From IMG/VR virus record IMGVR_UViG_3300042879_003023, positions 1 to 52,837 of that record: a DNA stretch of 52,837 nucleotides. One strand, 5' to 3'. Shown here one piece after another: positions 45,678-49,074 of this stretch. This stretch comes from a virus. A model generated the notes under the pieces. It searched no databases. It was not told where the DNA came from and saw only the letters and a list, made by a program, of their open reading frames with translations. The first letter of the stretch is position 1. Each line of letters starts with the position of its first letter. The position numbers and the translations under genes were made by a program.

Positions 45678-46319
45678 ATGTTTGGAATTAGCGAAAAAAT
45701 TTATAATTTTGTTTTAACTATAAAAAACAAACTAATGAGAAAACCCACAAAGAAAAAACAAGACCCAGCATATATGTTATTTGTGTTTGGTGATTTCACA
45801 GATCTTGAAATTTTCACACAAGAACTTTCTATGCAATTTCTACCATTAGTTAGTTCACACTACTTGAAATTTACTTATGGTGAATATGGTGCGGTTTTTC
45901 ATTTCAGAAGTAATGAAACATTTTCAGATTTGAAACAATATGTTGAAATGATTTTGGAGGGTATTACAAGTCAGTATTTTTTGATGGAAAAAACAAAGAA
46001 TACTGAAATTGTTATGGATAAAAAATTAAAGAAAGATTTTTTAGGTATAGACGGTAAAAACAAAACAGACGAAAACAAAACAGGCACGATTAATGTAGAT
46101 GATTTTAAAGACGAAAGAATAAAGAATATAAAGAACGTGACACTTGAATTTATGATGCCAATTATGGATCCTGAGTCGTTATTCAATATCGACACAACTT
46201 ATCAAGTGGTAGAACCAACAGTGGATGAAATTTTAGAAAAGATAACAGAGAAAGGAATTGAGTCATTAACAGAAAGAGAAAAACAAATTTTAGACAATTA
46301 TGGAAAGAGAGAGAAGTGA
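45678..46319 (+). CDS. unknown protein with C-terminal DUF6576-like module
   Basis: The protein has 213 residues. An N-terminal basic helix is followed by a mixed domain with AYMLFVFGDFTDLEIFTQEL and YGAVFHFRSNETF. A linker leads to a C-terminal segment VDEILEKITEKGIESLTERE followed by KQILDNYGK. That segment closely matches the short 'DEILdKI..kGi.SLT..E...L..~S' module found at the C-terminus of Bacteroidota rhomboid proteins. Its 3' end overlaps the sigma gene by 20 bases. It might act with the sigma factor; this is inferred from coupling only. Confidence 0.6.
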   Translation: MFGISEKIYNFVLTIKNKLMRKPTKKKQDPAYMLFVFGDFTDLEIFTQELSMQFLPLVSSHYLKFTYGEYGAVFHFRSNETFSDLKQYVEMILEGITSQYFLMEKTKNTEIVMDKKLKKDFLGIDGKNKTDENKTGTINVDDFKDERIKNIKNVTLEFMMPIMDPESLFNIDTTYQVVEPTVDEILEKITEKGIESLTEREKQILDNYGKREK

Positions 46320-47115
46320 AGATGTTAAATCATCAAACCCGTTAAATCAAGATGAAATACAAATCTATTTAAAGGATATTAGAAAATTGAAAGTTATGAC
46401 ACCTGAAAGAGAAAAGGTGTTGGGACAAAGATACGTTTCTGAGGATTGTACACAAAGAGAAAAAGAGGCAATTCAAAAAGAAATGTTAGAAGGAAATCTA
46501 CGTTTTGTAATTACAGTTGCAAAACAATACCAAAACCAAGGAATCGATCTTGCAGATTTAATTGCCGAAGGTAATTTTGGTCTTATGAAGGCAATTAAGA
46601 ACTTTGATTGGACTAAAAATAATCGTTTTATATCATATGCTGTTTGGTGGATTAAACAATCTATTTTGCAATCTTTGAACGATCATTCAAGAACCATTAG
46701 ATTGCCGGTGAATGTTGTTCAGGATATGCAAAAAGAAAAGAAGGAAAACGAAAAAACAAACAAAGACCTATCTGAAAAATTTGCAACACTCCCAAGAATG
46801 ATTGATCTTGATATGCACATTAATGAAGACGGTGATACACTAATTGATGTGATTAAAAATGAAAACGTTCAAATGCCTGATGAAATGTTTTCAACACAAG
46901 ATATCATTAAAAATAAAATGATTGAAATTATGGGTGTTTTGGATGAAAGAGAAAGGGTTATTGTTGAAGATTACTACGGTATAACAGGAACACCAAGAAC
47001 TTTGGAACATATTGGATCAGATTTTGATCTAACAAAAGAACGTGTTAGACAAATTAAAGAAAAAGCTCTTCGCAAGTTAAGAAACGAATGTTCAGACCTT
47101 TTTGAATACCTATAA
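46300..47115 (+). CDS. RNA polymerase sigma-70 factor
   Basis: The protein has 271 residues. Region 1.2-like DEIQIYLKDIRKLKVMTPER is at 18-37. Region 2 (about 66-135) is nearly canonical: DLIAEGNFGLMKAIKNFDW, then FISYAVWWIKQSI, the 2.3/2.4 residues that melt and read the -10/-7 element. Region 3 is shortened (136-200). Region 4 ends in a helix-turn-helix LTKERVRQIKEKALRKLR (244-261) that would read the -33 element. It resembles a host primary or group 2 sigma more than the small gp55 of T4, yet lies just after gp46/gp47, where T4-like phages put their late sigma. It may direct late transcription or capture host polymerase. Confidence 0.9.
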   Translation: MERERSEDVKSSNPLNQDEIQIYLKDIRKLKVMTPEREKVLGQRYVSEDCTQREKEAIQKEMLEGNLRFVITVAKQYQNQGIDLADLIAEGNFGLMKAIKNFDWTKNNRFISYAVWWIKQSILQSLNDHSRTIRLPVNVVQDMQKEKKENEKTNKDLSEKFATLPRMIDLDMHINEDGDTLIDVIKNENVQMPDEMFSTQDIIKNKMIEIMGVLDERERVIVEDYYGITGTPRTLEHIGSDFDLTKERVRQIKEKALRKLRNECSDLFEYL

Positions 47116-47134
47116 AAAAAAGTTTGTTTTTTAT
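47112..47134 (+). terminator. A/T hairpin at sigma gene end
   Basis: An 8-bp all-A/T stem (47112-47119 with 47127-47134) overlaps the sigma stop codon and ends in a T run. It is weak by composition but placed between the sigma gene and the promoter of the RNA. Confidence 0.35.
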
Positions 47135-47164
47135 TTGGTAATTAAAAAATAATACATATCTTTG
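47134..47164 (+). promoter_or_regulatory. Bacteroidota host-type promoter TTTG-N19-TATCTTTG
   Basis: TTTG at 47134-47137, exactly 19 bases of spacer, and TATCTTTG at 47157-47164 match the Bacteroidota primary-sigma promoter (TTTG / N19 / TAnnTTTG) in every fixed position. Transcription would begin near 47171, directly into the candidate structured RNA, with no ORF of size on this strand. Confidence 0.7.
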
Positions 47165-47170
47165 TATTGT

Positions 47171-47290
47171 TGATGTGATAGATATACGGGTTTAAGTAGA
47201 AGTGACTTGGAACGAAACAATCCCAAGTCGGTGAAAAAATGGAAGACGATTAAGATACAAAAGTTTCACCCTACTTATTCCACCGTTATA
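47171..47290 (+). ncRNA. candidate structured RNA with three-way junction
   Basis: Four helices nest without conflict. P0 pairs 47183-47189 with 47283-47290 with one bulge, and P1 pairs 47193-47199 with 47271-47277. P2 pairs 47204-47210 with 47223-47229 (12-base loop), and P3 pairs 47230-47236 with 47264-47270 (27-base loop). P1, P2 and P3 are each seven perfect pairs; P2 abuts P3 and P3 abuts P1 with no unpaired base, and 4 bases join P1 to P2. The loops share a 4-base complement (AATC at 47219-47222, GATT at 47248-47251) that could kiss. No known family was recognised. The 3' end is not defined by a U-tract and would overlap the opposing gene's last codons by about 16 bases. Confidence 0.65.
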
Positions 47291-47730
47291 ACAAACTGAT
47301 CTTTACCAACCCTAAAAGGATTATCACTACTTTCCCTAAATAAAGTTCCAATATTCATTCTCCAATAAGTTCCGGCTTCCCTTTTTGGGAATATCGGAAA
47401 GGCTAATTCCCACTTTAAAGATTTCACAACAAAAGGTACACCATCTACAATATTCCCATTTATTATATTTTCAGCAATTAATGTTTTAAGGTTATTTTCA
47501 ATAAAAAACTTTAATTCTGAATTACTTATTTCTCTTTGATTATATTCATAACTATATTTCCCACTTAGTTCTTTACCTTTATCTGCTAATTCTGGTCTAG
47601 TTTCTTTTTCAGTTGCGTGGGATCCTTTATGGAATTCAAAATTGAAAAATACTTCCATTTTTTCCGCCATTTGAGCGATCCTTTTTTCAAGTAATAAATG
47701 TTTCCTTATGGACTCTCTAAGTAGTGACAT
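47275..47730 (-). CDS. unknown protein with LxE-type leader
   Basis: This 151-residue protein is encoded on the minus strand, one of only two such genes here. The N-terminus SLLRESIRKHLLLEKRIA is an amphipathic basic helix containing LLE, like the leaders at 35483, 51186 and 51700. The remainder is a mixed alpha/beta domain with ISNSELKFFIENNLKTLI and a C-terminal strand pair (VVKSLKWELAFPIFPKREAG). No catalytic motif is seen. The short gap to the plus-strand gene at 47779 holds TATTTATT copies. It might be a virion-internal protein; no family was recognised. Confidence 0.6.
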   Translation of the reverse strand: MSLLRESIRKHLLLEKRIAQMAEKMEVFFNFEFHKGSHATEKETRPELADKGKELSGKYSYEYNQREISNSELKFFIENNLKTLIAENIINGNIVDGVPFVVKSLKWELAFPIFPKREAGTYWRMNIGTLFRESSDNPFRVGKDQFVITVE

Positions 47731-47739
47731 TATTATAAT

Positions 47740-47759
47740 TATTTATTATAAGTATTTAT
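47740..47759. promoter_or_regulatory. two TATTTATT elements in divergent gap
   Basis: TATTTATT occurs at 47740-47747 and again at 47753-47760, in the 48-base gap between the minus-strand gene and the ATG at 47779. Two copies fit two start sites, possibly one per direction. Confidence 0.35.
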
Positions 47760-47778
47760 TAATTATAGTTTATAATGT

Positions 47779-49074
47779 ATGAAAGATAAATTTTTGCCTT
47801 GGTTTTTGTTAATATGTGCTTTAGGTCTGTCAGGAACTGCGGCTTATTATAGTGTTGTTGGGTTATCTGTTGTTTTTGTTGGGGTTGCCATTCCTGTTAT
47901 AATAATGGGATCATTTTTAGAAATATCTAAAATTGCAATTGCAACATATCTTCACGACAAATGGAAGGAAACTTATGGAGCTCTTAAAATATATATGACA
48001 ATTGCTCTTATAACACTTTCGGTAATTACTTCACTTGGTATATATGGACTTTTAAGTACTGGGTTTCAAGGAAATATTGCAAAACTTGAAATAAATGAAA
48101 AAAAGATTAAAAATGTCGAAGTAAAAAAAGAAAGATTCAATGAAATTAAAGAAGAACTATCAAAAGAAAAAACAACACTAGATAAAGACATCACACAATT
48201 AAGACAAGGACTATCAACTAACACAACAACACAAAGTGTTGATAGAAGAACAGGACAATTGATTACAAGAGCAAATAACGCTAATAGAACATCCTTTTTA
48301 AGTCAGTTAAAAGATGCTCAAACAAGAAGAGATACATTATCATCTAAAATTGACGCGCTTAACGATAGTATAACAAAAATTGATATTCAGATCCTTGATA
48401 TGGAATCAGAAGAAATATCAGGAAGTGAATTAGGAGCCATTAAATACCTAAGTGAAGTTCTTCAATGGGACATTAAACGAACCGCTAATCTTTTTATATT
48501 AATATTAATATTTGTATTTGATCCACTTGCAATCACACTTGTTATTGCAACAAACCAAGCGTTTAAATCAAAAAGAAAAGATGATGAGACCCCTCAAGTA
48601 CCCCCCAACAACCCCCCAAGTACCGACCAAGTAACGACTAAGTACCGACTAAGTAACGACGAAGTAATTGATGAAAAAAATGTAGAAAAATTAACTGATT
48701 TACAAAAAGAGGTGAATAAAGTTTGGGAAAAAGTTAATCAATTAAAAGAAGAAGGTAAATTACCCCCACCTCCCACTGAAGAAGAACTTGCGGAAGAACC
48801 AACCGCACTTGCCTTTACATATGGAATTGAAGAAGAACCCGAAGAAGTTATTGATGAAGATATAGAGGAAATAAAAATTCCTACACAGACGAAAAAATAC
48901 GAAGAATCAATAGATGATTATTTTGAAAGAGAAGATTTTAATGAATTAAACATTACAGAACCAAAAGAAGAAACAAAACAACCCGAAGTAATCCAATATG
49001 AAGTCCCTACAGAACCTAAACGATTATCATACACAAATAGAAATGGTGGATCTTTCAGAATTAATAGAATTTAA
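47779..49074 (+). CDS. four-span membrane protein with long coiled coil
   Basis: The protein has 431 residues. Hydrophobic spans lie at about 7-24, 27-47 and 70-92, then a coiled coil (about 98-225) rich in Lys/Glu/Asp/Thr, then a fourth span near 238-262. The coiled coil would lie on one membrane face and the acidic C-terminal 170 residues on the opposite face. The layout resembles DUF4407-type proteins, from memory. The C-terminal tail contains the C-rich and 11-bp-repeat DNA segment. It overlaps the amidase-like gene and heads the lysis-like cluster; a structural or superinfection-related role is possible. Confidence 0.65.
   Translation: MKDKFLPWFLLICALGLSGTAAYYSVVGLSVVFVGVAIPVIIMGSFLEISKIAIATYLHDKWKETYGALKIYMTIALITLSVITSLGIYGLLSTGFQGNIAKLEINEKKIKNVEVKKERFNEIKEELSKEKTTLDKDITQLRQGLSTNTTTQSVDRRTGQLITRANNANRTSFLSQLKDAQTRRDTLSSKIDALNDSITKIDIQILDMESEEISGSELGAIKYLSEVLQWDIKRTANLFILILIFVFDPLAITLVIATNQAFKSKRKDDETPQVPPNNPPSTDQVTTKYRLSNDEVIDEKNVEKLTDLQKEVNKVWEKVNQLKEEGKLPPPPTEEELAEEPTALAFTYGIEEEPEEVIDEDIEEIKIPTQTKKYEESIDDYFEREDFNELNITEPKEETKQPEVIQYEVPTEPKRLSYTNRNGGSFRINRI
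48618..48666 (+). repeat. 11-bp direct repeats (AAGTAMCGAC) in coding DNA
   Basis: Four adjacent 11-base units (48618-48628, 48629-48639, 48640-48650, 48651-48661) read AAGTAMCGACN, plus a partial fifth AAGTA. Just upstream, two C6 runs separated by AACAA (48601-48617) follow another AAGTA at 48596. The unit length is not a multiple of three and so was not selected as a protein repeat. Confidence 0.75.

Follow-up and report, generated by a model that had tools for sequence, protein, structure and literature searches.

The RNA locus downstream of the phage sigma-factor gene

We analyzed a window of 52,837 nucleotides from a lake phage, comprising positions 1 to 52,837 of the IMG/VR record IMGVR_UViG_3300042879_003023. 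A phage sigma factor gene is followed by an intergenic region with a promoter of Bacteroidota type and a probable small RNA gene, beyond which lies a convergent gene for a 151-residue protein. A transcript from this promoter would fold into three helices of seven perfect base pairs, the first starting 29 nt behind the promoter, arranged as a three-way junction with only four unpaired junction bases (Table 1). No plus-strand ORF over 30 aa covers the RNA. The stop codon of the convergent gene (47275-47277) overlaps the 3' strand of P1. The convergent protein has no Pfam or PHROG match, and its N-terminus, MSLLRESIRKHLLLE, resembles a cleavable capsid-targeting leader (LxE). Many neighboring ORFs in the related loci start in a similar way.

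Table 1 Features of the RNA locus and its neighbors in the window.
Position	Strand	Feature	Sequence or pairing	Support
46300-47115	+	Phage sigma factor, upstream neighbor		PHROG 351; Pfam Sigma70_r2, r4; relatives in 39 IMG/VR loci
47134-47164	+	Host-type (Bacteroidota sigma-A) promoter	TTTG 47134-47137, 19 nt, TATCTTTG 47157-47164	Direct reading; element conserved upstream of related hairpins; consensus TAnnTTTG from F. psychrophilum TSS mapping (PMC9723704)
47168-47290	+	Probable small RNA gene; 5' end about 47168-47171 inferred from the promoter, 3' end not determined (no terminator behind P1)		Promoter position; model R1 hit at 47203-47268
47186-47286	+	P0, weak outer (fourth) helix	ACGG 47186-47189 with CCGT 47283-47286	Direct reading; other members can pair GGTT/AACC or GGAT/ATCC at about this place, alignment uncertain
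47193-47277	+	P1, closes the three-way junction (window subtype only)	TAAGTAG 47193-47199 with CTACTTA 47271-47277	100% paired in 7 distinct sequences; absent in the short types
47200-47203	+	Only unpaired junction bases	AAGT	Direct reading
47204-47229	+	P2 (H1 hairpin)	GACTTGG 47204-47210 with CCAAGTC 47223-47229; 12-nt loop AACGAAACAATC (consensus RAnnRAACRAnY)	4 of 7 pairs with two-sided changes, 98.5% paired over 19 sequences
47219-47251	+	Possible loop-loop contact	AATC 47219-47222 with GATT 47248-47251	Compatible, not proven
47230-47270	+	P3 (H2 hairpin), carries the invariant-loop module	GGTGAAA 47230-47236 with TTTCACC 47264-47270	4 of 7 pairs with two-sided changes in the window subtype; 9 of 9 in the stems of 22 hairpins
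47241-47260	+	Near-invariant 20-nt loop	GGAAGACGATTAAGATACAA (family GGRMRACRAUUnAGAUACAA; n is A, C or U in the RNAs seen)	Alignments A3, A6 and A7; recurs in single hairpins at GOLLD and tRNA loci
47275-47730	-	Convergent 151-aa protein of unknown family		Stop codon inside P1; family recurs beside the RNA in many loci but not all

Minimum-energy folding of the window sequence returned the same three helices. However, the z-score was only -1.73, with 9 of 200 shuffles folding as well, and thus the single sequence is not beyond chance. A sequence-only reading of this region had described the promoter, the four mutually compatible helices and the partly complementary hairpin loops, and all of these features are present as it described them. 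We found no + strand terminator call at 47100-47800, such that the element does not qualify as merely an intrinsic terminator, although T-runs do follow H2 in some relatives. Comparison with Rfam 15 returned no match for this RNA at gathering score, in the window or in its relatives, and at E-values up to 10 only two chance-level matches were found within 47140-47320. BLASTN of the region against annotated phages returned only short, weak matches.

Next, we searched for relatives. The sigma protein led to 39 IMG/VR loci (numbered with the prefix L here, as are the loci from later searches), of which two, L001 and L009, carry the same RNA behind the same promoter. A pattern from the shared loop, TGGAAGACGATTNAGATAC, returned 35 viral loci, all but one (L058, coding) with the same two-hairpin arrangement. 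A relaxed two-hairpin pattern added one more (L191) and otherwise gave matches without the RNA, apparently coding. A pattern from the H1 loop alone returned the known RNAs, one truncated copy (L212) and four matches without H2, while all intergenic matches to the strict H1 loop pattern also carry H2. DNA cytosine methyltransferase-like genes lie directly upstream of the RNA in L054, L067, L069, L071 and L072, in L071 between the sigma gene and the RNA, so the RNA stays put while its upstream neighbors change.

Other phages carry different conserved RNA-like cassettes at the same place behind the sigma gene. Type B (GTCGGGAAGCTTACTCCTGGGGTCGTAAGTCGTCG...GGGTTTAAAATCCTC or GTCGTAAGTCGTCG...GGGTTTAAAATCCTC) has its own promoter and terminator and no Rfam match, and is found behind the sigma gene in L008, L014-L017, L021-L026, L030 and L037, and at about 7485 (-) in L250. 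Type C (GGGTTGAACCGAGATTACCC...ACTCGG...GGTGAAAATCCTC) combines an apparent H-type pseudoknot (GGGT..CCGAG..ACCC..CTCGG), a GGTGAAAATCCTC hairpin and a terminator, and is found in L006, L019, L020, L031 and L258-L269, with some copies behind the sigma gene. The place is thus a hot spot for small RNA genes, which we did not pursue further. In L250 and L257 the order is sigma, promoter, divergent window-type RNA, promoter, type B, terminator.

Covariation of the stems

A MAFFT alignment of the relatives (A1) placed the H2 stem of the window subtype in a wrong register, and a separate alignment (A7) was used for that subtype. In 13 distinct short-type sequences (A3), 94.7% of cells are paired, 7 of 15 pairs have two-sided changes and the covariation score is 0.42, against at most 0.22 in slid registers. 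In the window subtype (A7, seven distinct sequences including the divergent L250), 98.6% of cells are paired and 8 pairs have two-sided changes, one in P1 (A-U to G-C in L250), three in P2 and four in P3. Over 22 distinct hairpins that carry the loop (A6), 90.7% of cells are paired, all nine stem pairs have two-sided changes and the score is 0.88, against at most 0.25. G-U pairs outnumber A-C mismatches 44 to 3, so the RNA is read on the + strand. A covariance model built only from the short types (R1), without the window, finds the window RNA at 60.4 bits, with an E-value of 1.4e-10 over the loci and 1.2e-11 in its own record.

The sequence-only reading had staked its interpretation in advance on compensatory base changes in P1-P3 of related phages, and such changes are present in each of the three helices. 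Its interpretation of a phage-encoded, structured RNA behind a host-type promoter is therefore supported, with three corrections. First, the three-way junction is an elaboration specific to the lineage of the window, whereas the family core is the invariant-loop hairpin, which that reading did not single out. Second, the proposed kissing of the two loops is compatible with 93% of cells, but there is no two-sided change, the H2 side never varies and one of the pairs is mismatched in 5 of 19 sequences. This leaves the contact possible but undecided. GATT is also invariant in single hairpins with no partner loop, hence a kissing loop is not supported as the reason for the loop conservation. Third, no comparison with purine riboswitches is warranted.

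The invariant-loop hairpin and its genomic settings

The shared unit of the family is a hairpin with the near-invariant 20-nt loop, which recurs on different stems and occurs once, twice or three times per RNA. The window meets this definition, with the loop on a covarying stem, the H1 hairpin with its own conserved loop immediately 5' of H2, as in the two- and three-hairpin subtypes, and its own TAnnTTTG promoter. One set of RNAs has the loop twice, in H0 and H2 (L043, L045, L056, L061, L065, L068, L073, L074), L060 has an additional, downstream hairpin that ends in a T-run, and L270, L272, L277, L278 and L330 form another three-hairpin branch. The loop was part of the search patterns, which inflates its apparent invariance, although relaxed scans and L250, found independently through another RNA, show only small deviations (GGGAAACGAUUAAGAUACUAA). 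Some genomes have several such genes. In the genomes G042 and G044 a two-hairpin RNA and a single hairpin coexist.

Single hairpins begin at about +1 of a TAnnTTTG promoter, with the loop starting about 19-23 nt behind the start of the -7 element. They lie just in front of a second promoter and GOLLD RNA (L225/L226, L289, L325, L310) or in front of tRNA genes (L281, L298). The 634,780-bp phage record LR745206.1 has three such promoter-hairpin genes, one before an array of at least 19 tRNAs and two near a tRNA-Met. Of 55 loop hairpins, 47 have a TAnnTTTG element, the sigma-A -7 box of flavobacteria (PMC9723704), within 160 nt upstream, whereas 7.5 are expected from shuffles. The related loci come from the same collection and are not independent samples, so this ratio overstates the number of independent events. 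The host is inferred only from this promoter type.

We looked for cellular homologs. A pattern search of about 85,000 GTDB genomes gave 99 hits, which are at chance level and none of which has the H1 partner. A model search of 395 Bacteroidota genomes was empty, but is a weak test because only a few candidates per genome were scored, and the cellular-genome searches are incomplete. Thus, the family appears confined to viruses in the collections searched.

The GOLLD RNA (Rfam RF02032) is likewise a structured non-coding RNA encoded by lake phages, and is present in many records of this phage group. The window RNA is about 100-120 nt, not about 800 nt, and is unrelated to GOLLD in sequence and structure. 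The window record has no match to the 416-position GOLLD model, whereas the neighbors of single-hairpin relatives do match. A second short hairpin type, with AGGWGATGAAAGATACTCG, lies behind sigma-A promoters upstream of GOLLD in L225 (about 1745-1800, -), L234, L238 and L289, and was not analyzed. Many of the phages in L231-L241 have a small conserved ORF (about 50 aa, ending ..KYGT..VYVEK) behind a promoter plus an ATTAGGAAACGTCCTAAT-type hairpin, just 5' of GOLLD. In L325 (100-510, +) and L310 (5121-5528, +), an Rfam tmRNA match lies in the same contig as a GOLLD RNA, close to it and on the opposite strand.

Possible modes of action

Taken together, the comparisons establish a conserved structure read from one strand, an association with a host-type promoter, the reuse of one loop independently of stem sequence and genomic place, and restriction to viruses in the collections searched. 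We infer, but did not observe, that the RNA is transcribed, that a protein recognizes the loop, and the direction of any effect, since no expression data were examined and binding was not assayed. We are highly confident that this is a real structured RNA family, previously undescribed and without an Rfam entry. Few phage small RNAs are known to have conserved structures, and this family is linked by position to GOLLD and to phage tRNA arrays, whose roles in very large phages are open questions.

Our preferred model, which we hold only tentatively, is that the locus encodes a free-standing, phage-specific small RNA that acts in trans. In this view the H2 hairpin loop is the functional unit, folding into a specific shape that a host or phage protein recognizes, while the stem can be almost any sequence. 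The RNA would act as a decoy or sponge for that protein, with copy number raised by tandem hairpins and by several promoter-hairpin genes per genome. The placement next to tRNA arrays and GOLLD suggests that the target lies in RNA metabolism or translation. No protein partner or phenotype is known, and a strictly conserved loop could also bind RNA or a small ligand. H1 has its own conserved loop, which the decoy model does not explain, and in several loci H2 is followed by a T-run and may serve simply as terminator. A fixed loop on replaceable stems is an ideal bait, and a short synthetic hairpin of about 45 nt (a stem with GGAAGACGAUUAAGAUACAA) could identify the bound protein directly.

The repetition of the same loop on successive hairpins of one small RNA, with stems free to vary and GGR near the 5' side of the loop, resembles the logic of the CsrB/RsmZ protein-sponge RNAs. 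However, the conserved motif is about 20 nt rather than a GGA core, and CsrA was not found over cut-off in 60 Flavobacteriales genomes, while the controls in E. coli, B. subtilis and T. maritima were detected. On these grounds the RNA is not counted as a member of that family, although the exact host is not known and whether it binds and titrates a protein was not tested. A more far-reaching and unlikely version of the decoy reading, which our data do not rule out, is that the loop is a stand-alone effector, mounted on interchangeable hairpins and expressed from several host-type promoters per genome beside tRNA arrays and GOLLD, that neutralizes a host factor in RNA metabolism or translation, for example a tRNA- or ribosome-directed defense. 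It would then form an RNA decoy arm of the translation-takeover kit of very large Bacteroidota phages.

A cis-acting 5' element is less likely. Such a promoter-proximal hairpin would control the transcription of what follows, as an attenuator or put-like antitermination signal, or protect the 5' end. This would fit the single hairpins that begin at about +1, the T-runs carried by some H2 or single hairpins (L281, L298, L270, L043), and the GOLLD or tRNA genes that follow in the same direction. However, in the window the next + strand gene starts about 500 nt downstream, behind a convergent gene, and in L046, L048, L050 and L051 everything downstream is on the opposite strand. Where GOLLD follows, a second promoter lies between. 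The put RNAs of phage HK022 also have two hairpins with conserved loops directly behind a promoter, a parallel that we did not test, but many of our loci have no sense operon downstream, H2 is in several cases followed by a T-run, and the partner would have to be RNA polymerase in cis.

An antisense-type regulatory RNA, in which the exposed loops pair with phage or host mRNAs, is similarly unlikely. The loops are exposed and conserved, and a small stand-alone RNA with its own promoter is typical of trans-encoded sRNAs. However, the loop complement, TGTATCTNAATCGT, occurs in only 13 of 148 Flavobacteriales genomes, about the level of the reversed-pattern control, and in LR745206.1 the motif and its complement, allowing one mismatch, are not enriched over control. 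No loop complementarity of 11 or more pairs to two 16S loci was found. Base pairing to a universal host RNA is not supported, and a 20-nt loop kept nearly letter for letter is more than a seed needs. Antisense control of the convergent gene was rejected, as this gene is missing next to the RNA in L044, L046, L049 and L050.

Two further readings are very unlikely. A small-molecule-sensing or kissing-loop riboswitch would fit the compact three-way junction with side-by-side hairpins, conserved loops and 4-bp loop-loop complementarity, which recall the purine riboswitch fold. However, none of the sequence signature of that family is present, no riboswitch model matches even at E = 10, there is no expression platform or sense gene directly downstream, most members do not share the junction, and single hairpins conserve the loop without a partner. 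Alternatively, the loop might imitate the 16S rRNA 790 loop (GAUUAGAUAC), from which GAUUnAGAUAC differs by one inserted base, and compete for a translation factor or ribosomal protein. GOLLD binds ribosomes in pull-downs and OLE may sequester RpsU (PMC12286853). The similarity to 16S is not significant, however, since 8-35% of shuffled H2/H0 loops align as well, and the 16S loop has a different closing context.

We also rejected a small peptide (ATG GAA GAC GAT TAA in the window), because the variable loop base makes or removes the stop codon and the start is not kept (TTG in L051, ACG in L191). Finally, a chance foldback in an AT-rich intergenic spacer, for which only the weak folding z-score speaks, is refuted by the two-sided compensatory changes in all helices of the relatives, far from the slid-register controls.
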